Shown here in pieces: positions 8,102-60,058 of a stretch of 64,000 nucleotides of DNA. The notes under the pieces were generated by a model. The model ran no database searches and was not told where the DNA came from. It saw nothing but the letters and a program-made list of their open reading frames with translations. This DNA comes from a virus. The translations under genes and the position numbers were made by a program. The number at the start of each line of letters is the position of its first letter. Positions within the stretch are counted from its first letter, which is position 1. The stretch covers positions 34,824-98,823 of the IMG/VR virus record IMGVR_UViG_3300007515_000003, one strand, 5' to 3'.

Positions 8102-8466
8102 TAGTCTGATAAAAGAGATTGGGTGTAATCGTTTCGGAGTTCATTGAGAAGGTCAACCCAAGCAACGCCATTCGTTTGAGCCTCACGCATTAGGCGAGTA
8201 ATCGCAACTTCATCTTGCCAACCGAGAACATCATCGAACTTAGCAAGCGGAAGCATCTTGTCGTTGTGGAACATTGCGACTTCGTAAGTTCCTTGCGATG
8301 CGTTGCCATAAAGCCCACCGAATTGCTTTTCTTTGTTCTTCATAGAGACAACGGAAATCTGAAATCCGTTTCCTAAATCAAGTCTAGCTTGGATTGCATC
8401 TGGATGGTTTGCGTGGTCGTTAAACTCCAAATCGGAGAAGGTTTTCGTCTTTTGTGTTTCAATCAT
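8101..8466 (-). CDS. Hypothetical protein
   Basis: Protein of 121 aa (MIETQKTKTFSDLEFNDH...). A beta-rich core (FQISVVSMKNKEKQFGGLYG, YEVAMFHNDKMLPL) is followed by a helical C-terminus. First gene of a four-gene leftward operon with a leaderless promoter. Family unknown. Confidence 0.8.
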   Translation of the reverse strand: MIETQKTKTFSDLEFNDHANHPDAIQARLDLGNGFQISVVSMKNKEKQFGGLYGNASQGTYEVAMFHNDKMLPLAKFDDVLGWQDEVAITRLMREAQTNGVAWVDLLNELRNDYTQSLLSD

Positions 8467-8472
8467 AAATAT

Positions 8473-8501
8473 ATTCTGACAGATAATAGGGTTTTTGTCA
8501 A
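8473..8501 (-). promoter_or_regulatory. Early promoter, leaderless type
   Basis: Leftward TTGACA, 17 bases, CAGAAT, 6 bases, ATG at 8466. Confidence 0.75.
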
Positions 8502-8510
8502 GGCTTTTTT

Positions 8511-8747
8511 TTATAAATCTTCCGTTAGGGCAAATATTCTTCCGTTGTAATCAACTTGGCTGGAAATGTTTGTAAAGGTTCTCTTTTCTAAATTGGCTCG
8601 CAAGCAATCTTCGCTGATATAATACTCTCGCAACCAAGGCGTTTTCTTCTTCTTCTGTTCTTCCGCTTTTCTGTCCACCTCTGCAATGACTATCACGCCA
8701 TCGTTTGAAAGTGAGAGTAAAAGGCTTTTGTCTCGTTTTAATTTCAT
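8511..8747 (-). CDS. Hypothetical basic protein
   Basis: Protein of 78 aa (MKLKRDKSLLLSLSNDGVIV...). Central basic patch EEQKKKKTPWLREYY. Start fixed by the fused promoter. Unknown function. Confidence 0.75.
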   Translation of the reverse strand: MKLKRDKSLLLSLSNDGVIVIAEVDRKAEEQKKKKTPWLREYYISEDCLRANLEKRTFTNISSQVDYNGRIFALTEDL

Positions 8748-8753
8748 CCCTTT

Positions 8754-8782
8754 ATACTAGATTAATTAAGCCTTGATGTCAA
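8754..8782 (-). promoter_or_regulatory. Early promoter, leaderless type
   Basis: Leftward TTGACA, 17 bases, TAGTAT, 6 bases, ATG at 8747. Confidence 0.75.
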
Positions 8783-8813
8783 GCTTTTTCTTTCGCTCGC
8801 AACATACTGAAGC

Positions 8814-8862
8814 TCAACGACTTACGCTGACGCCGGGGGCCGGCCCAGCCCTAAGTCCTTGA
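8814..8862. repeat. Stem-loop repeat, copy 9
   Basis: Left arm TCAACGACTTACG, right arm CTAAGTCCTTGA, core GCCGGGGGCCGGCCC. It begins immediately after the leftward gene ending at 8863. Confidence 0.85.
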
Positions 8863-9030
8863 CTATCTGCCGTTTAGGATTCTCAAGAGATGCTCGTAAG
8901 CTGGCAAGCCTGAGTTTAACCCATGAGCAACCCATTTTCCCTTTTCTTTACGGTAAAGCAAATCCCATTTGCAAGCGTAATCATGCACTCGCATTAGACC
9001 ATTGGGCAAGATTTCAGTTCGGTATCTCAA
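8863..9030 (-). CDS. Small protein with probable TTG start
   Basis: A 55 aa frame whose TTG overlaps the TGA stop of the GP88-like gene (TTGA), a typical coupled start. An in-frame ATG 12 codons later would give 43 aa (MRVHDYACKWDLLYRK...). It ends at the stem-loop. Basic and aromatic; function unknown. Confidence 0.6.
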   Translation of the reverse strand: MRYRTEILPNGLMRVHDYACKWDLLYRKEKGKWVAHGLNSGLPAYEHLLRILNGR

Positions 9031-9749
9031 GAGTTTATCCCTTCCTGTACGAATCCTGTCTCATCCTTTTTTGCCATACCCTTTTCGATAAGCCCGACAA
9101 TAACGCCTTGCTTGTCACGGAAACGCAAATCACTTTCATCGCCATTGATAACTTCGTGACCTTTCCAAGTTTTAGGTAACCTATCACGGAAAACCACGGC
9201 GACATTTCCACCCATTTGCAAAACCATATCGCAAAGCGTATCGTTATGCTCTGAGCGAGAAAAAGTCAAATGATAGTTGCTCGGAAAATCCTTAGCTTGA
9301 TTGACGAACTTTGCCATGCGTTGAAACGACTTGGTATAATCATAAAATTGCGTTTCGGGAAACTTTTGCATAAGCGTTTGACCATTTGCATCTTCAATGT
9401 TTTCCCATTCCAAATCGCTTGTGAGATTAGGGCGAAAAACCGCAGTCATTTCTTTCTTAACTGCTGACTTAATGCCTGAAGCAATTTCCTTTGCGAGCTT
9501 TTCCATGAACGCAAGCTTTTGTTCAAAGAATAACTTTGTCTTGGCAATGCGAGAGTCTTGGATTTTGTCCATTCGTCCACGACCAGCAGTATTCAAGCAA
9601 GCCATCGTGCAACCTTTGCTTCTCCATTGGCAAGCTTCGTACCCCGAAAGATTTGCTGGAGCAAGATGAATGCCCTTAGTCATGAAGCCAAAAGCTTCGC
9701 CTTTTACGATTTTGGCATTTCCTGCCGTGAGTAGAGTTGTCTTAATCAT
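9027..9749 (-). CDS. GP88-like phage protein
   Basis: Protein of 240 aa (MIKTTLLTAGNAKIVKGEAFG...). The N-terminal pattern LTAGNAKI, HLAPANLSG, then C-x8-C-x4-C resembles the 'gene product 88' family of phages, in which cysteines follow a GN-K motif. The family has no proven activity; the cysteines suggest metal or cluster binding. Start fixed by a leaderless promoter. It overlaps the next small gene by four bases. Confidence 0.65.
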   Translation of the reverse strand: MIKTTLLTAGNAKIVKGEAFGFMTKGIHLAPANLSGYEACQWRSKGCTMACLNTAGRGRMDKIQDSRIAKTKLFFEQKLAFMEKLAKEIASGIKSAVKKEMTAVFRPNLTSDLEWENIEDANGQTLMQKFPETQFYDYTKSFQRMAKFVNQAKDFPSNYHLTFSRSEHNDTLCDMVLQMGGNVAVVFRDRLPKTWKGHEVINGDESDLRFRDKQGVIVGLIEKGMAKKDETGFVQEGINS

Positions 9750-9755
9750 GCCTTA

Positions 9756-9784
9756 ATACTATCTTAATTCTGCTTTCTTGTCAA
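9756..9784 (-). promoter_or_regulatory. Early promoter, leaderless type
   Basis: Leftward TTGACA, 17 bases, TAGTAT, 6 bases, ATG at 9749. It lies inside the 3' end of the preceding gene. Confidence 0.8.
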
Positions 9785-9911
9785 CAATTTTCTTTGCTTT
9801 TTCAATTCCTTTTTCCATGCCGAACTGAGAAACCAAGCGTTTGAAAGTTTCCCAAGCAATCGTATTCTCGGGAAGCTTTTTCCATTCTTTCATTCTTTCT
9901 TTACTATTCAT
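9759..9911 (-). CDS. Small basic protein
   Basis: A 50 aa frame (MNSKERMKEWKKLPENTIAW...). Lysine-rich and helical. It has its own leaderless promoter and its last codons encode the next promoter. Unknown function. Confidence 0.65.
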   Translation of the reverse strand: MNSKERMKEWKKLPENTIAWETFKRLVSQFGMEKGIEKAKKIVDKKAELR

Positions 9912-9917
9912 GCCTTA

Positions 9918-9946
9918 ATTATGGCAGATTCTAGGGGCAAAGTCAA
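9918..9946 (-). promoter_or_regulatory. Early promoter, leaderless type
   Basis: Leftward TTGACT, 17 bases, CATAAT, 6 bases, ATG at 9911; A-tract upstream. Confidence 0.8.
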
Positions 9947-9991
9947 GCCTTTTTTTAAAATAAAATCAAAAGAAATCTAAACCCCTCTAGA

Positions 9992-10041
9992 CCAAGGACT
10001 TACGGACCGGCGGGGAGGCCGCCCGGGCCGTAACTCGTTGA
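9992..10041. repeat. Stem-loop repeat, copy 10
   Basis: Left arm CCAAGGACTTACGG, right arm CGTAACTCGTTGA, core CCGGCGGGGAGGCCGCCCGG. It follows the leftward membrane peptide ending at 10045. Confidence 0.85.
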
Positions 10042-10044
10042 TAC

Positions 10045-10134
10045 TCAGCTACCTACAGCGTGCACATAAACGCACAGGCTAGTATAAGTAGCAAAGGCAA
10101 CTGCTATAAATATATATAATAGTCTATTTGTCAT
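10045..10134 (-). CDS. Membrane micropeptide at operon end
   Basis: A 29 aa frame (MTNRLLYIFIAVAFATYTSL...), one hydrophobic segment, overlapping the previous gene's end and placed directly before the stem-loop at 9992-10041. Confidence 0.55.
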   Translation of the reverse strand: MTNRLLYIFIAVAFATYTSLCVYVHAVGS

Positions 10135-10309
10135 CACATTGCTTGTTGAGCTTGACAACTTTAAGCACCTTCTTAAAGGCTTCTTGCACTCCGTCAAGAA
10201 ACTCCTTGCTTCCCATTTCTGGATAAACATGGTTGATGTCGTTAGGATCGTAGACATTCAAGACATCTAAGATGACCTCGAAATCTTTTTTGTTTAGTGA
10301 TGTATACAT
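10124..10309 (-). CDS. Hypothetical protein
   Basis: Protein of 61 aa (MYTSLNKKDFEVILDVLNVY...). Helical with a basic C-terminus. In a leftward operon with the genes at 10314 and 10430. No family recognised. Confidence 0.7.
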   Translation of the reverse strand: MYTSLNKKDFEVILDVLNVYDPNDINHVYPEMGSKEFLDGVQEAFKKVLKVVKLNKQCDDK

Positions 10310-10313
10310 AATT

Positions 10314-10430
10314 CTATAATTCTTCTACCCACCAATAGCCTTCGCACTTAGTGAGAATGGTATCAATTCCGTTTTGTTGCTTCATGTAGACAAATTGCCT
10401 CGCATGGTGTTCGTGAATAAACTTATACAT
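10314..10430 (-). CDS. Small aromatic protein
   Basis: A 38 aa frame (MYKFIHEHHARQFVYMKQQN...EGYWWVEEL). Starts in a TAATG overlap with the preceding gene, which supports translation. Histidine- and aromatic-rich; function unknown. Confidence 0.6.
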   Translation of the reverse strand: MYKFIHEHHARQFVYMKQQNGIDTILTKCEGYWWVEEL

Positions 10431-10771
10431 TAAAAGTCTGCTCCATAGGTTTCTTGCTCTCCAAAGCAACCGTAATCTTCGTCAGTCCCGAATCCTGCGG
10501 AAGTCATGGCAGAATCAAAATCTCCATCCATACTTTCGTCGATATCTCTTTCGTCGTTGATGTGCCATTGCTCAACCTCTTCACAAGAAATCATCTTGCC
10601 GTGCCAATCGTAAACGGCAAATTGGATTCCAAGATTAAGGTATTCGCCAGTTTGATTAGCCTCATCTATCAGGACTTCTGCTCGCATATAAGCTTGCTCA
10701 AGACCTTCACGATTTTTGTTCCAGAAATAGTCAAGCGTTTCATTTACAATTACTTCATATCTTTTTATCAT
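10430..10771 (-). CDS. Hypothetical acidic protein
   Basis: Protein of 113 aa (MIKRYEVIVNETLDYFW...). The N-terminal IKRYEVIVNET resembles DpnD/PcfM-type small proteins; the C-terminus is very acidic (DIDESMDGDFD). First gene of a leftward operon with a leaderless promoter. Function unknown. Confidence 0.75.
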   Translation of the reverse strand: MIKRYEVIVNETLDYFWNKNREGLEQAYMRAEVLIDEANQTGEYLNLGIQFAVYDWHGKMISCEEVEQWHINDERDIDESMDGDFDSAMTSAGFGTDEDYGCFGEQETYGADF

Positions 10772-53241: not shown

Positions 53242-53617
<376 letters not shown>

Positions 53618-54025: not shown

Positions 54026-54331
54026 GTGTTGCTTTTAATTGATTCTGAACTCACTGAACCGCCTTCATCGGTGACGCTGTTTAGGGATATAACGCTTTAT
54101 GCTGCCACCTTTAAAAAGATGGACATAATTCTGGAGGCAAAACCCGTAATGCAGGACTACTATTATAAATGGCTCAAGGAGCGCGGCGCATTTGACTTTA
54201 TAAAGGACATATTGGACTACGAAAAGGAGTACGGCAAAACAATTCGATATAGGTTCGGCGGTCACGCAGGAAACGTTAGTGTGAGAAGTATAGGTTACCA
54301 TAACTTTCAAAGGATTATAGGCTCAATTTAA
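54026..54331 (+). CDS. Small rightward protein of unknown function
   Basis: Protein of 101 aa (MLLLIDSELTEPPSSVTLFR...). FKKMDIILEAKPVMQDYYYKWLKERGAF looks coding and conserved-like. It runs against the neighbouring leftward genes and ends 4 bases inside the next gene. No promoter is obvious. The antisense leftward frame here is less convincing. Confidence 0.55.
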   Translation: MLLLIDSELTEPPSSVTLFRDITLYAATFKKMDIILEAKPVMQDYYYKWLKERGAFDFIKDILDYEKEYGKTIRYRFGGHAGNVSVRSIGYHNFQRIIGSI

Positions 54332-55113
54332 TACTTAAAGTAGTCAAAAGACGAATGATTATAGGAAAACCTTCCCAAATATATCTTTCTAGAGTCTCCG
54401 CCTGACTCATACCCCTTCGTAATCGGAGACCAATTTGGAAACTCACCTGAGATAACCCTTAAGAGGTTGTGTTCTATTTTCCATGGATCAACACTGTGAA
54501 GACTGTTGAAAAGAGTGAGATACTTAATTGCAATCTTCTCTCTTGTCTTTGACGGAAAAATAGGATAGACCGTAGCAAACGTTCCTGCCTTCCGCCTGGA
54601 AAACTCAATCCCGTGAGGGTTTTTGGGTATGTGAAGTTGGAAAAATTTATTTAAGAAAAATATTAATGGCCTGCTGAAGATATATGAGTATCTATCTTCG
54701 CTCACCTGATCGCCAGCGAAGCTTATTACGTTCACTTTCTTTGGGCAAGTCTTAATATATGCTGACTTTGTAATTACTTGGGATTCAATATTAAATTTGA
54801 GCCCGAGATTGACGCCCGCAAGGCCAGTGTCCCTGTTCCCCAGGCAAGCGGAGCTATTTGAGCAAAGATTTAATAGGGCTGATTTATATCTCGAGCTACT
54901 TGTGAAGCCCCTCAAAAAGCGATCTGAAAATTTTGGAAATTCGTCTAGTATTTTGCAGTATCCCTTGATGGAGATGATCTTGTCGCGCGTATAATTAATT
55001 CCTACTCCATCCAGGCACCTGTGGACAATTTTGAATTGCCTGCAATAATCCCCAAACTCCTTGAACTCCTCGCGCGAGAAAGTTTTATGGAGGTGATTAA
55101 GTATGTCGTCCAC
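54328..55113 (-). CDS. Hypothetical protein of the metabolic operon
   Basis: Protein of 261 aa (MDDILNHLHKTFSREEFKEF...). Basic and aromatic, with several cysteines (ALLNLCSNSSACLGNRD). Two SPxTK/S-P segments near the end. No family recognised. It is at the end of the 54-60 kb operon. Confidence 0.7.
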   Translation of the reverse strand: MDDILNHLHKTFSREEFKEFGDYCRQFKIVHRCLDGVGINYTRDKIISIKGYCKILDEFPKFSDRFLRGFTSSSRYKSALLNLCSNSSACLGNRDTGLAGVNLGLKFNIESQVITKSAYIKTCPKKVNVISFAGDQVSEDRYSYIFSRPLIFFLNKFFQLHIPKNPHGIEFSRRKAGTFATVYPIFPSKTREKIAIKYLTLFNSLHSVDPWKIEHNLLRVISGEFPNWSPITKGYESGGDSRKIYLGRFSYNHSSFDYFKY

Positions 55114-55149
55114 TGTCTTTGTTTTTTTGTCGAAAAATTTTTTTCAATC

Positions 55150-55791
55150 TTACGTTATATTAAAATGAGTCGAGTATGCTGATTTGCAGATTTCATAGAA
55201 AAAATAATTCTCTTTAGGGGTATACTCAGGGGAAAGACAAACAAAAAGATAGTCAAAATCTATGCTAAGTATTTCTTTGTTTAATCTAGTCTCAACAAAT
55301 ATTGAGGGCTTCTGCTTGATGCAAAAATCCTCGCTATCGTGCGTAAAGGCAAGCTTGCTAGTAAAAAGAACATTTCTCGCATCAATAATGTCATAGCTTC
55401 TGTCCTTGTAATACGCTTCACAGAACAATTCCACCATCTCTTCTGAGAATTCCTCTGAATAGGGCTGCTTGATCCAGGTATAAGAATTAAGATTTAAGTT
55501 TAGCGCAGACCATAATACCCAATCTGATGAGCCTGCTATGCCCGCTCGAACTTCGGCAATTGATGCTTCCTTCTCATAAAAAATATCATGATGGAGATCT
55601 ACGTTATAGATGTCGAGCTCTCCGTCGATGCCGTTAAGCATATCTAGTATATCTGCATGATACTGTGCCAATGCCACCCTAGACTTATCTTTTATCCCAT
55701 GCAGCGCTTTAATAAATAAATCGAAAACCTCGACCATATCATGTGTGTCCAGGCAATAATCTATATCTATGGATAATATTTTTTTATTCAT
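55150..55791 (-). CDS. UPF0489-like protein (peptide-arginase fold)
   Basis: Protein of 213 aa from ATG 55791 (MNKKILSIDIDYCLD). LSIDIDYCLDTHD, IYNVDLHHDI and SIDFDYLFV have the aspartate/histidine pattern of UPF0489 proteins, a group that includes peptide arginases which turn peptide arginine into ornithine. The N-terminal D-x-D and V-D-L-H-H-D are likely metal ligands. If correct this phage may modify peptides or small guanidino compounds. Confidence 0.55.
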   Translation of the reverse strand: MNKKILSIDIDYCLDTHDMVEVFDLFIKALHGIKDKSRVALAQYHADILDMLNGIDGELDIYNVDLHHDIFYEKEASIAEVRAGIAGSSDWVLWSALNLNLNSYTWIKQPYSEEFSEEMVELFCEAYYKDRSYDIIDARNVLFTSKLAFTHDSEDFCIKQKPSIFVETRLNKEILSIDFDYLFVCLSPEYTPKENYFFYEICKSAYSTHFNIT

Positions 55792-56305
55792 TGAAGCAAA
55801 AAACATTTACCTGAATCATCGGGGCGTCACATTCGAGGAGTATGTCGAAAAACCTATCTGCCTTGGGCGGCGCGCTCACTAACCTATTATGTTTGGGGTG
55901 ACACCTATGATACTTTGCTTCTTGTCGTAATTGCAGAGGTAGGATCTCATTAGGGGAATAAAAAAGAGAGCCCCCCGTAAAGTTGGCGCCCTCGGACAAA
56001 AAATATATGACGTGTTTATTAATATCTCTGCCGTCATACTGCTGGTAATCATGAGGGCCCAGGGGTATGCTCTTGGCGGAAAAGGAATTTACGAGACACC
56101 CGTGGTCAGGCAAGGGGTCTTCGTATCCAAGGTCCTCAAGAATACGAGCAGAAAGCCTGTTGAAAAATTTATTATTTATATTTTTAACGCTGTCGTGTAG
56201 AATTTTCGATTTGAATTTTCTAAGTTTATAGCGACGAGTAATATCGCTTGCACAAAAGTCAGCGAGGCGCGTCGGCAGAAAATCATCTTGGACTTCAATT
56301 TTCAC
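55784..56305 (-). CDS. 2OG-Fe(II) oxygenase-like protein (degenerate site)
   Basis: Protein of 173 aa (MKIEVQDDFLPTRLADFCAS...). DDFLP, GPHDYQQYDGR, HVIYFLSEGANFTGGSLFYSPN and NRLVSAPP match the prolyl-hydroxylase layout, but the distal histidine seems replaced. Possibly an inactive or modified-site family member, or a false match. It overlaps its neighbours. Confidence 0.5.
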   Translation of the reverse strand: MKIEVQDDFLPTRLADFCASDITRRYKLRKFKSKILHDSVKNINNKFFNRLSARILEDLGYEDPLPDHGCLVNSFSAKSIPLGPHDYQQYDGRDINKHVIYFLSEGANFTGGSLFYSPNEILPLQLRQEAKYHRCHPKHNRLVSAPPKADRFFDILLECDAPMIQVNVFCFNE

Positions 56306-56933
56306 TTTTCGAAAAAGACTTAAGTAATACCTGAGACGGTACTACCTTGTTGAAATTATTTTTTGTAGTATTAAATATTTTAAGCCACCCAAACAATCTT
56401 CCCACCATCGGAAAGTATGATATATAGTCTCTGGGAACTTCCGCATCTAAAAGTAAAGCGGACATAGCGCAACCAACATTCATATGTACCGGCAACATCT
56501 CTTCCAGGGTAAGACAAAACCTCATTCGCTCCCTAATAAGATCCGGGAATGAGCGTATTAAGAATTTTACGCGGGGATCTCCGCCCCTAATTGAAGGATG
56601 CCCAAAGCCCGGAACCCTTTGGTCGGCGCAATGATATTCTCCGTAGACAACATCGGGGGAGCGTTGGTAATTTTCCTCGATAAAATATGCTATCTCATTG
56701 ATTAATAAATGCTTGTCGCTTACGCAATTTAGCCCTGCTGCTGCAGCGCTAGGAAATGAGGCCCCGCAATTCGCCGCAAGCGCAACCACGCAAGAACTCG
56801 GCGGCTCTGCAGGTTCCGGAAACTCAATAAAGCTTGAGCAAATCGTGCTGCATAGCTCGTAAACTCTTTCGTCTTCCGTCTCTATGTTTAAATGAGAAAA
56901 TATTGTTTTAAAAAAATTATATTCTACATTCAT
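56295..56933 (-). CDS. Citrate-synthase-like domain protein
   Basis: Protein of 212 aa. VVALAANCGASFPSAAAAGLNC, then VPGFGHPSIRGGDPRVKFL (G-x-G-H-x...D-P-R) and NVGCAMSALLLDAEVPRDYI, FPMVGRLFGWLKI match the C-terminal half of citrate synthase / citryl-CoA lyase. Normal enzymes have about 370-430 aa; this is half-length, lacking the N-terminal part. Unusual in a phage. Catalytic state unknown. Confidence 0.65.
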   Translation of the reverse strand: MNVEYNFFKTIFSHLNIETEDERVYELCSTICSSFIEFPEPAEPPSSCVVALAANCGASFPSAAAAGLNCVSDKHLLINEIAYFIEENYQRSPDVVYGEYHCADQRVPGFGHPSIRGGDPRVKFLIRSFPDLIRERMRFCLTLEEMLPVHMNVGCAMSALLLDAEVPRDYISYFPMVGRLFGWLKIFNTTKNNFNKVVPSQVLLKSFSKSEN

Positions 56934-57408
56934 ATTTATTCGCTACAATCTCGTAATCTAGTTTGGATTTCTTTGCAATATTTAAACAGCTATTAAATGA
57001 GGGTTTATTGTTTGTGGATATTTCCGTTAATACAAATTCAATACCTTTAATCCTGAGGGCTTCAAGAACCTTCGCGTGTAATTTCGTCGCAAGGCCTTGA
57101 TTCCTATAAGCCTTTGCAATGACCGTAATAACTCCCACTGCGATTTTTTTATCGAGATCATATACTTGATTGAGGCATGTAGATGCGCAGCTAAAGGCAA
57201 TTGGAACACTGGGCTCCTCAAAGGGGCCTGCGGAGACAAGGTATGCCGGATCTTGATTGATTAGCGTAGGTCTGACCTCTAGTGAGAAAAAATTATCTAC
57301 ATTCTTTCTTGTTGCCTTGAGTGGAAGATGGAGGCCCTCGTTTTCATTGAACGCCGCAAGGAGTAAATCCTTTATTTCTACCTCATCCGCCAGAGTGGCC
57401 TCCCTCAT
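56917..57408 (-). CDS. GNAT-family N-acetyltransferase-like protein
   Basis: Protein of 163 aa from ATG 57408 (MREATLADEVEIKDLLLAAF). Motif A AVGVITVIAKAYRNQGLATKLHAKVLEAL, with Q/R-x-x-G-x-A for acetyl-CoA, and a C-terminal TEISTNNKPSFNSC. A longer frame to 57507 overlaps the upstream gene's coding part and is rejected. Substrate unknown. Confidence 0.75.
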   Translation of the reverse strand: MREATLADEVEIKDLLLAAFNENEGLHLPLKATRKNVDNFFSLEVRPTLINQDPAYLVSAGPFEEPSVPIAFSCASTCLNQVYDLDKKIAVGVITVIAKAYRNQGLATKLHAKVLEALRIKGIEFVLTEISTNNKPSFNSCLNIAKKSKLDYEIVANKYECRI

Positions 57409-57418
57409 TAATCTATCA

Positions 57419-58405
57419 TTAGGTAATAACTTCACAATCCACCTCCAATAGCGATGATAGATCTCCACCTCCAGCATAACTAATTGCGCTCTGGAGGTCT
57501 TGTTCAATCTCTAAAAGTTTTTCAGAATACGAGAACCCGCTTGCAGTAATCTCTCTCTGAACTCCCTCGACGTGATTTCTGTGACCTTTATTCTCTGCGC
57601 TGGCAGAACCAAAATAAGCTTTTCGTTTTAAGCCATCGGCACAAAGAATCGTCTTCGCCGGACTGTCGTTGCAACCCGCAAATAAAGCGCCAGCCATAAC
57701 CATAAAGGCGCCCGCATGAATTGCCTTAGCAATATCCCCGGAGGAAGTTATGCCCCCATCGGCAATAATTGGAACTTTGTCGTCGCCCGTTCCGGCATAT
57801 ACTCCAGCACATTTTTGCACACAAGAAAACATTGGCATTGTGAATCCTGTCTTATCTTTTGTAGTACAAGGACTTCCTTGTCCGATGCCCACCTTAACTA
57901 TAGACGCTCCCCATTTATATAAGTCCCTTACCGCCAACTCTGTCGTTACATTGCCCGCAATGATTTTGCACCCATCCATAAAACAGGCGGGCGCCTGCTG
58001 GAGTAGGAACTTAATCATTTTTTCCATTTTCCTGCAATGGCCATGTGCAATATCGATTGTAATATAATCTACTCTAAGATTTTCGTTTGAAATTTGTTTA
58101 ATTATATGCTCATCTTCTGTTTGTACTCCAATGCTAATTGAAATTGTCTTCCAATTTTCTTTATTTGCTTTACGCACAAAGTCTACAATATCTATATTAA
58201 ATCTATGCATGATGTAGAAATAATGATTCTCTGATAGCCACCGCGCCAAACCCTCATCTATGACCGACTTCATGTTTGCGGGAATGATGGGCAGCTTGAA
58301 CGAATCTCCATTGAAAAGGGAGACTGAGGTGTCGCATTCTGAGCGAGAACTGCAATCACTATACCTAGGGACTAGGCAAACATCTGAGTATTTAAACAGT
58401 TTCAT
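57419..58405 (-). CDS. guaC: GMP reductase / IMP dehydrogenase family protein
   Basis: Protein of 328 aa from ATG 58405 (MKLFKYSDVCLVPRYSDCSS). TIM-barrel of the IMPDH/GMP reductase family: IIAGNVTTELAVRDLYKWGA, KVGIGQGSPCTTKDKTG (catalytic loop cysteine in SPCTT), PIIADGGITSSGDIAKAIHAGA, YFGSASAENKGHRNHVEG. No CBS domains, so GMP reductase is favoured (GMP to IMP). It would raise IMP and lower GMP. Overlaps the cupin gene. Confidence 0.85.
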   Translation of the reverse strand: MKLFKYSDVCLVPRYSDCSSRSECDTSVSLFNGDSFKLPIIPANMKSVIDEGLARWLSENHYFYIMHRFNIDIVDFVRKANKENWKTISISIGVQTEDEHIIKQISNENLRVDYITIDIAHGHCRKMEKMIKFLLQQAPACFMDGCKIIAGNVTTELAVRDLYKWGASIVKVGIGQGSPCTTKDKTGFTMPMFSCVQKCAGVYAGTGDDKVPIIADGGITSSGDIAKAIHAGAFMVMAGALFAGCNDSPAKTILCADGLKRKAYFGSASAENKGHRNHVEGVQREITASGFSYSEKLLEIEQDLQSAISYAGGGDLSSLLEVDCEVIT

Positions 58406-59384
58406 ATTGTCGATTGATAAGGGAGTTAATGGTTCCGAAATGTGCCAGATGAACTGCCCGACTGAAAAGATCACTCTTGAACAATCCAGAAAATAAATAA
58501 GCATCTATATTTCTATCATCTATAAAGTCCCTACTCACGCTAATTGAATTCGTAAGGCTTTCTGCGTAATGCCCCGTCATTGATGGAACATATATAACGT
58601 CTCCGGCCTGGATATCATTAACATAAACATCGATCGAGCTCATAACTTCTAAAAGTTTACCTGCTTCGGTGGAATTCAATTGAGAAACAATTCTAATGCT
58701 GTCCCCCTCTAAAGAAAACCTTAACGATTCCAGTAAGGGATTATCAAACTTACCCTCAAGAAATATCTGTTGATCTGGAGGAATAATAAAAAACCTTTTA
58801 ATGCCACAGCACTGCTGAATCGTCGTGTGAATATCGTCATGGTCGCTGTGTAATTCGCTAAGTGTTCCTTTGGGGCCTATAAAAAACCAAGTGTGCATAT
58901 GCCCGTATACTACCGCATCCCTGAAGGTAGGTAAATATCTGTCGAACCAATCTCCAAAAAATGACGGGCAAGAGACGTGCTTTATGAAATCTTCTAGGTG
59001 CTCGCAATTTAACGCAAGGCAATATAGTTTATCTTCTATAGTGAAATCGCTAAAAGTCGTATCTCCTGACGAAGGGTGGTAAACCATTGCATTCTTGAGC
59101 GGACTGCCCTCAATAATATAGTCTATATATTGATGTAGGGTTGCTGTGATCTGCTCCTCATTTTGACAGAGCGAGCGCTTTAGCTTAATCTCCTTGTCTG
59201 GCAATCTTTGTTTAAAATTATCAAAATTTAACGTTCTTGCTAGCTCGTTATCTATAGCGTCTTTAAAGACGCAGGGTTTATCTCTGTCCAGCTGAAAATC
59301 TACCGCAGAGGGGCGCGGTTTGTACTGTAAGCTAAGCTTAGGTTTAACACAAGCCTTATTCACTTGTGAAAAACCCAATACCAT
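58392..59384 (-). CDS. Cupin/JmjC-like 2OG-dependent oxygenase
   Basis: Protein of 330 aa from ATG 59384 (MVLGFSQVNKACVKPKL...). LHSDHDDIHTTIQQCCGIKRFFIIPP and DVIYVPSMTGHYAESLTNSISVSRDFID have the H-x-D ... H layout of Cupin_8/JmjC oxygenases. An upstream in-frame ATG at 59426 is also possible, but the 59356-59487 small frame covers it. Substrate unknown. Confidence 0.7.
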   Translation of the reverse strand: MVLGFSQVNKACVKPKLSLQYKPRPSAVDFQLDRDKPCVFKDAIDNELARTLNFDNFKQRLPDKEIKLKRSLCQNEEQITATLHQYIDYIIEGSPLKNAMVYHPSSGDTTFSDFTIEDKLYCLALNCEHLEDFIKHVSCPSFFGDWFDRYLPTFRDAVVYGHMHTWFFIGPKGTLSELHSDHDDIHTTIQQCCGIKRFFIIPPDQQIFLEGKFDNPLLESLRFSLEGDSIRIVSQLNSTEAGKLLEVMSSIDVYVNDIQAGDVIYVPSMTGHYAESLTNSISVSRDFIDDRNIDAYLFSGLFKSDLFSRAVHLAHFGTINSLINRQYETV

Positions 59385-59487
59385 CCCTGATGCACCAAGA
59401 TATACAAAGTCCGGCGGCGCCCACAATCCAGTCTCCCGGAAAAAATTCTGGGTAAGTTGAATTTGCTGCTGCTAATAGTTCGATCAT
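59356..59487 (-). CDS. Small membrane peptide, coupled start
   Basis: A 43 aa frame (MIELLAAANSTYPEFFPGDW...). A hydrophobic stretch with IVGAAGLCISWC follows. ATG overlaps the upstream TGA (ATGA) and has a good Shine-Dalgarno (AAGGA). Overlaps the JmjC-like start in another frame. Confidence 0.6.
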   Translation of the reverse strand: MIELLAAANSTYPEFFPGDWIVGAAGLCISWCIRDGIGFFTSE

Positions 59488-60023
59488 CTGAATTCCTTTC
59501 TTAGTAGTCTCCACCTATCGGAGTCGATTGTTTTTGTGCCATCATTAATAGCATATAACATATCAACGATTTCGTCAAGAGAATTATAAATATATTTATG
59601 TGGAAACATTCCTAACATCCAAAGCGGGGTCTTTGTTTTGCCTCCCTCCATGCTTACGAAGACGGGCTTCTTCATTCTTACTGCGGTTACAATCTCTTCT
59701 GCGCTTCCCCAGCTAGCAACATCAGGAACAAGATGAGCTATAATAAAATCGCTTCTATCTACAAGGTTAAGGTCATATGCCCTCACTGTCTTCATTCTTT
59801 CGGTTACCCGGTCATACTGTTTAGTTTTCATCCACGTATCCATTTCTTCTCTCGTACCTTCGTCCTCCTCTACATCTTTCATGAAAGGTTTATTATATGG
59901 GTCAAAGCAGGTGACCCCGAGCGACTTTAATCTATCGGTGACTTCAGCCCTCCAGTTCCTTCCTGAGAGGTACTGCATGTGCCCAACTAAATATGTCTTG
60001 GTTCTATACAATAAATTTGACAT
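59484..60023 (-). CDS. Nucleoside 2-deoxyribosyltransferase-like protein
   Basis: Protein of 179 aa. TYLVGHMQYLSGRNWRAEVT, FDPYNKPFMKD, and SDFIIAHLVPDVASWGSAEEI match the family (Nuc_deoxyrib_tr): N-terminal glycine loop, then the catalytic glutamate in GSAEEI. It swaps or hydrolyses bases on deoxynucleosides. First gene of the operon; four-base overlap with the next. Confidence 0.75.
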   Translation of the reverse strand: MSNLLYRTKTYLVGHMQYLSGRNWRAEVTDRLKSLGVTCFDPYNKPFMKDVEEDEGTREEMDTWMKTKQYDRVTERMKTVRAYDLNLVDRSDFIIAHLVPDVASWGSAEEIVTAVRMKKPVFVSMEGGKTKTPLWMLGMFPHKYIYNSLDEIVDMLYAINDGTKTIDSDRWRLLRKEFR

Positions 60024-60029
60024 ATTATA

Positions 60030-60058
60030 ACCTTACCATATCGGTAAGGATTTGTCAA
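60030..60058 (-). promoter_or_regulatory. Operon promoter with palindromic operator
   Basis: Leftward TTGACA, 17 bases, TAAGGT. A perfect inverted repeat CCTTACC-gatat-GGTAAGG (60031-60049) covers the spacer and -10, so a repressor should block it. Very short distance to ATG 60023. Confidence 0.75.

Follow-up and report, generated by a model that had tools for sequence, protein, structure and literature searches.

A phage operon that may encode a natural-product-like cassette with a predicted ABBA-fold prenyltransferase

What does a phage make with a tight run of metabolic genes placed behind a single promoter? The window analysed here, a 64,000-nucleotide stretch of a virus record of 98,823 bp (IMGVR_UViG_3300007515_000003), carries such a run, and its sequence also lies inside IMG/VR contig IMGVR_UViG_3300009104_001827, a large phage of 211,117 bp. 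A first-pass annotation of the DNA had proposed the synthesis of a modified nucleotide or small molecule, perhaps for DNA base modification. We put at about 0.5 the probability that the operon is a phage-borne natural-product-like cassette, whose putative enzymes build or modify a compound or peptide that is both prenylated and acylated.

Nine genes behind an old phage promoter

Nine co-directional genes run leftward between positions 54328 and 60023 of the minus strand (Table 1). The tight block that the first-pass annotation described is thus present, although with nine genes rather than ten, even when a previously unnamed 43-aa membrane peptide is included. Neighbouring genes overlap at seven of eight junctions (4-29 nt, with the starts as inferred here), and the sole junction without overlap is a 36-nt gap before the last gene. 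This layout fits one polycistronic unit, and such close packing gives unrelated passengers no space. Comparison of the operon DNA with annotated phages found no similarity.

Table 1. Coordinates of the promoter region and the nine genes of the operon, in positions of the window.
Feature	Position	Strand	Basis and remarks
Promoter-operator	60024..60058	-	TTGACA, -10-like TAAGGT, inverted repeat
Deoxyribosyltransferase-like protein, 179 aa	59484..60023	-	PF15891 and PF05014 near cut-off; old phage block
43-aa single-TM-like peptide MIELLAAANSTYPEFFPGDWIVGA...	59356..59487	-	Kept in related phages
JmjC / Cupin_8 hydroxylase-like protein, start inferred	58392..59384	-	PF13621; HxD...H
GMP reductase (GuaC2-like), ~328 aa from MKLFKY	57419..58405	-	PF00478; PRK05458; 1ypf
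GNAT acyltransferase, start inferred (GTG)	56917..57435	-	PF00583
Citryl-CoA-lyase-like protein, 212 aa	56295..56933	-	PF00285; model vs 6hxp
2OG-oxygenase-like short protein, degenerate	55784..56305	-	Without HxD motif
UPF0489-like putative metal hydrolase	55150..55791	-	PF12640 weak in relatives; SxDxD and DxHHD motifs
ABBA-fold prenyltransferase-like protein, 261 aa, last gene	54328..55113	-	AlphaFold2 model, Foldseek, VIA-align

The single promoter and perfect palindrome noted earlier were both found again. TTGACA (60058-60053) is followed by a 17-nt spacer, TAAGGT (60035-60030) and 6 nt to the ATG, and a perfect 7+5+7 inverted repeat, CCTTACC-gatat-GGTAAGG (60031-60049), overlaps the -10 element. 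The repeat is the only match in the window with two or fewer mismatches, against a chance expectation of 0.05. Across related phages, 16 distinct promoters place TTGAC(A) 29 nt before the ATG of the deoxyribosyltransferase-like gene. Summed over these 16, palindromic pairing reached at best 99, compared with a mean of 70 and a maximum of 83 after shuffling, and about half of them show no inverted repeat above chance. The two other phages with the full gene set carry an inverted repeat at the equal position with different letters, and a separate phage group has its own repeat, shifted three bases further on. The operator thus belongs to the old phage promoter, and L005, a phage that lacks the cassette, has it too.

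The genes nearest to this promoter are old as well. The deoxyribosyltransferase-like gene and the membrane peptide form a conserved phage block that occurs with or without the remaining genes. The deoxyribosyltransferase assignment made in the first pass is borderline and falls marginally short of the Pfam cut-offs (PF15891, 29.7 bits against 30; PF05014, 26.0 against 28.8). The start of the 43-aa peptide overlaps the stop of the deoxyribosyltransferase-like gene (ATGA), and a peptide of the form FF-x-GD(W/F) follows this gene in related phages. We considered the peptide as a RiPP precursor and rejected it, as it is equally conserved in phages with and without the prenyltransferase-like gene.

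Composite architecture across related phages

We collected neighbourhoods by searching viral contigs with the GMP reductase, citrate-synthase-like, last-gene and UPF0489-like proteins; the compared contigs come from metagenomes, and some of them are truncated. The citryl-CoA-lyase-like gene was found in 17 contigs, all of which have the GNAT gene upstream of it and the prenyltransferase-like last gene downstream, and the GMP reductase gene is found in 10 of the 17 and absent from seven. The stable unit is therefore the trio of GNAT, lyase-like gene and last gene. The last gene directly follows the lyase-like gene, except in the three fullest phages, where the 2OG-like and UPF genes lie between them. 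Every contig found by the last-gene search also carries the lyase-like gene unless the contig ends first; one further contig (L067) was reached solely by this search. The JmjC, 2OG-like and UPF0489-like genes accompany the trio in three phages only, namely the window phage, L002 and L009. The operon is thus composite, with an old block, an optional GMP reductase, the trio, and a JmjC/2OG-like/UPF addition.

Identity across the related phages is 82-89% for the deoxyribosyltransferase-like protein, 50-62% for GMP reductase, 38-54% for the lyase-like protein and 25-42% for the last gene. In those pairs that allowed a calculation, dN/dS of the prenyltransferase-like and lyase-like genes is 0.05-0.15, and both proteins are under strong purifying selection.

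The earlier assignment of GMP reductase stood up well, with 191 bits to PF00478 and a whole-length alignment at 3.5e-77 to the solved GMP reductase 1ypf; the score against NCBIfam PRK05458 (339.5 bits) is just under the curated cut-off of 344, and the catalytic Cys loop GIGQGSPCTTKDKTGF is kept. The protein belongs to the same family as the GMP reductases encoded by Bacillus phage G, XacN1, Cr30 and other phages, and is 46.7% identical to that of phage G. In contrast to those genes, the one described here precedes the trio, though the trio also exists without it.

The neighbourhoods bear on the idea that the product is a modified purine deoxynucleotide destined for phage DNA. GMP reductase and the deoxyribosyltransferase-like protein do share a promoter, which speaks for such a pathway. 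However, the first is dispensable and the second independent of the rest, so that the purine deoxynucleotide theme put forward in the first pass does not survive the comparison. Moreover, three carrier contigs that were searched have no gene of the thymidylate-synthase or nucleotide hydroxymethylase families, and the trio consists of CoA- and prenyl-type folds, which have no known base-modification role. We consequently regard DNA base modification as very improbable. The annotation had named scattering of the genes in relatives as a refutation, and the outcome is divided: GMP reductase is scattered with respect to the rest, and the trio is not.

The same patchiness could reflect an ordinary composite moron region, in which nucleotide-salvage and unrelated accessory genes share a promoter and do not add up to a single pathway. 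Many phages that lack the trio encode GMP reductase, which is widespread (71 phage records), and the restriction of the JmjC, 2OG-like and UPF genes to three carriers would also be expected of such a region. Independent passengers, in contrast, would hardly remain unseparated in 17 contigs as the trio does, and we think this explanation unlikely.

Predicted folds of the conserved trio

The last gene, which the first-pass annotation left unnamed, is the most informative gene of the operon. It belongs to no sequence family and is recognised by no profile: a TIGR04445 (TruF/PatF family) search of ten carrier contigs came back empty at E <= 10, the last-gene profile returned nothing from the PDB sequences, and no profile search tied the protein to a known prenyltransferase at the sequence level. 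A deeper alignment contained no stretch conserved enough to serve as a pattern in the search for a cellular ancestor.

An AlphaFold2 model built from 14 phage sequences (pLDDT 89.3, pTM 0.89) predicts a ten-strand antiparallel alpha-beta-beta-alpha barrel. The top Foldseek match of the model was the geranyltransferase PirF (6.5e-5). The best 50 structural entries listed were all ABBA prenyltransferases, and the top ten were all cyanobactin-type peptide enzymes. In VIA-align the highest Z score belonged to DciF, an arginine bis-prenyltransferase (15.0), followed by KgpF (14.9), PirF (14.5) and PatF (14.3), with PagF and LimF also at the top. In ABBA enzymes, basic and Tyr residues of the barrel strands hold the diphosphate and shield the carbocation; in the alignment of the 14 sequences, K50, Y52, K54, Y142, Y144 and E170 are invariant and K243 nearly so, which makes the Lys and Tyr residues candidates for this role. 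The last gene is thus predicted to have the ABBA superfamily fold, with prenyl transfer as its putative activity.

Fungi, actinobacteria and cyanobacteria use ABBA prenyltransferases in natural-product pathways. Enzymes of the cyanobactin F-family take DMAPP or GPP and prenylate peptides at Tyr, Ser, Thr or Trp, or at the guanidine of Arg (PMC9609003, PMC13290415). The last gene resembles this family (PatF, PagF, PirF, KgpF, LimF, DciF/AgcF/AutF) in its predicted ten-strand barrel and similar size, with Z scores of 13.4-15.0, but it shares no detectable sequence similarity with it, is phage-encoded, and has a GNAT and a citryl-CoA-lyase-like protein as partners. Neither a dedicated (PatE-like) precursor peptide nor a linked PatA/PatG-type protease was recognised. 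A search of predicted viral structures with the model gave no match at E <= 0.001, an absence that is not proof by itself, and the literature that we searched contained no phage-encoded ABBA prenyltransferase.

The citrate-synthase-like gene of the first pass was borne out (PF00285, 35.6 bits against a cut-off of 27). The protein aligns by profile with citryl-CoA lyase at 3.6e-10, and its model (pLDDT 83) matches citryl-CoA lyase 6hxp with a Z of 21.2, which predicts a citrate synthase / citryl-CoA lyase fold. It shares this fold and both catalytic-His positions (H75, H112) with the citryl-CoA lyase of Hydrogenobacter and the citryl-CoA lyase module of ATP citrate lyase. Unlike these, the phage proteins are shorter (202-218 aa), and the Asp of LNVDG, which completes the His-His-Asp triad, is replaced by Gly154 in 13 of 13 aligned phage sequences, so that standard cleavage or condensation is not expected. 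Degenerate-pattern scans of a genome collection, whose short patterns could miss distant ones, found no cellular relatives of the lyase-like protein. The third member of the trio, the GNAT, had been named correctly (PF00583, 24.7 bits against a cut-off of 20.7) and conserves the acyl-CoA motif R-x-x-G-x-A/G.

A putative prenylated product and its tailoring

The joint retention of a predicted prenyltransferase fold, an acyltransferase and a fold of CoA enzymes points to a prenylated and acylated compound or peptide that is assembled or tailored with host DMAPP or GPP. The co-travel of the trio suggests that a prenylated compound is made or decorated, rather than that DNA bases are modified. The first-pass proposal of a modified small molecule is strengthened by this strict linkage of a prenyltransferase fold to the GNAT and citrate-synthase-like genes. 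In such a scheme, a biosynthetic cassette would have been inserted behind an older phage transcription unit. The last gene might move a dimethylallyl (or geranyl) group from a host-supplied diphosphate onto a nucleophilic group in a peptide or a small acceptor, and the GNAT could acylate that scaffold from acyl-CoA. The lyase-like protein, having lost its catalytic Asp, may bind a CoA thioester or carboxylic acid and carry out an altered chemistry. GMP reductase and the deoxyribosyltransferase-like protein would act in nucleotide metabolism and be tied to the cassette only through the common promoter. Against the scheme, a search of three carrier contigs found no prenyl-diphosphate (polyprenyl) synthase, and the operon has no recognisable scaffold-building enzyme such as an NRPS or a PKS.

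The prenyltransferase-like protein, the GNAT and the JmjC hydroxylase could instead form a protein-modification cassette that acts on a phage structural protein or a host protein. This stays among the main rivals, since in the relatives compared the block comes immediately after large tail-fibre-like genes. The substrates of cyanobactin-type prenyltransferases are peptides (PMC13290415), and phage homologues of the UPF0489-like protein occur elsewhere among 2OG-oxygenase-like genes, on contigs with virion-type genes. On the other hand, protein modification offers no evident task for the citryl-CoA-lyase-like protein and the UPF0489-like hydrolase, and the neighbouring fibre genes differ between phages that share the same trio. 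On balance we consider modification of a protein improbable.

Returning to the prenylated compound or peptide, its target could be the infected host or competitors. We hold as a more tentative proposition, at somewhat under even odds, that a family of large marine-type phages possesses a virus-specific pathway, built of the GNAT, the altered citryl-CoA-lyase fold and the ABBA prenyltransferase, that makes a natural product during infection, namely a viral specialised metabolite without a known counterpart in cells. The biosynthetic clusters of phage genomes are mostly bacteriocin-type ones carried by prophages. A review (PMC12360287, citing Dragos et al. 2021) describes clusters with a proposed advantage for the bacterial host. 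The operon is like them, as they are summarised there, in that a virus carries genes resembling those of specialised metabolism; it differs in that its carrier is a large phage and in its set of ABBA prenyltransferase-like, citryl-CoA-lyase-like and GNAT genes, which we saw nowhere else. The trio is held together by purifying selection in diverse phages, which would imply that a specific product is of advantage to those viruses. The trio also offers a small, expressible system with which to ask whether phages make their own chemistry against hosts or rivals.

In the fullest version of the operon, a JmjC/Cupin_8 hydroxylase and a UPF0489-like metal hydrolase may tailor the product. Several oxygenase-like genes had been reported here, and one of them is retained. 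The JmjC gene, recognised earlier as cupin/JmjC, scores 51 bits against PF13621 (cut-off 27.4), its HxD motif (H-S-D) and distal His are invariant in three relatives, and it falls in the JmjC / Cupin_8 class; judged by this profile match and motif, it is the sole credible oxygenase of the operon. Its profile retrieved nothing useful from the PDB sequences, and degenerate-pattern scans of the genome collection, which could miss distant ones, found no cellular relatives. The 2OG-like protein, in contrast, shows neither a PF13640 match nor an HxD motif, its copies share only 26-27% identity, and profile and motif do not support an assignment to the 2OG-Fe(II) oxygenases.

The UPF0489-like label was not fully confirmed: PF12640 gave only weak matches, in two relatives, the best at 18.9 bits against a cut-off of 27, and a profile search of the PDB sequences returned nothing useful that would confirm a link to arginase. 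D9, D11, D65, H67, H68 and D69 are invariant in 13 phage proteins and form SxDxD- and DxHHD-type motifs, which we take to resemble those of binuclear metal hydrolases of the arginase type.

Boundaries of the operon

At the promoter-operator of the first operon gene, which is deoxyribosyltransferase-like, the -10 box lies 6 nt upstream of the ATG, a spacing that is kept in relatives and from which the first-gene transcript is predicted to be leaderless. The opposite end of the operon is faced by a convergent 101-aa gene, which gave no match in a Pfam search and is kept in related viral contigs (L002, L003, L009, L015). A tmRNA is also present at the matching position in L002, L008, L009, L013, L014, L015 and L035.

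Candidate partners and host

The acyl-carrier-domain protein, with the attachment-site sequence GMDSLSLME and a 53% identical homologue in the L002 phage, could be a carrier partner for the operon GNAT acyltransferase. UPF0489-like genes of other viral contigs are surrounded by 2OG-oxygenase-like genes, suggesting that UPF0489 and oxygenase form a recurring pair. DUF1501 proteins are typical of Planctomycetota and Verrucomicrobiota, and the DUF1501 gene in G001, a 211-kb phage contig containing the same sequence as the window, is therefore a hint that the phage host belongs to these groups.

Features in the window and in other viral contigs
Feature	Location	Strand	Remarks
Promoter-operator of first gene	window 60024-60058	-	
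101-aa gene	window 54026-54331	+	
Phage-encoded tmRNA	window 53242-53617	-	tag ANNIVRFEDFTACGEELALAA; directly downstream of operon
283-aa protein, acyl-carrier (phosphopantetheine attachment) domain	window 40182-41033	-	28.9 bits, cut-off 20.8
UPF0489-like genes amid 2OG-oxygenase-like genes	L053 and L054 about 8254-10612; also L055-L063		
DUF1501 protein	G001 159430-160704	+	291 bits; twin-arginine-like start
Putative sulfotransferase-like genes in a row (MISHKHKYIFVHIPKCGG...)	G001 205773-208933	+	by eye only
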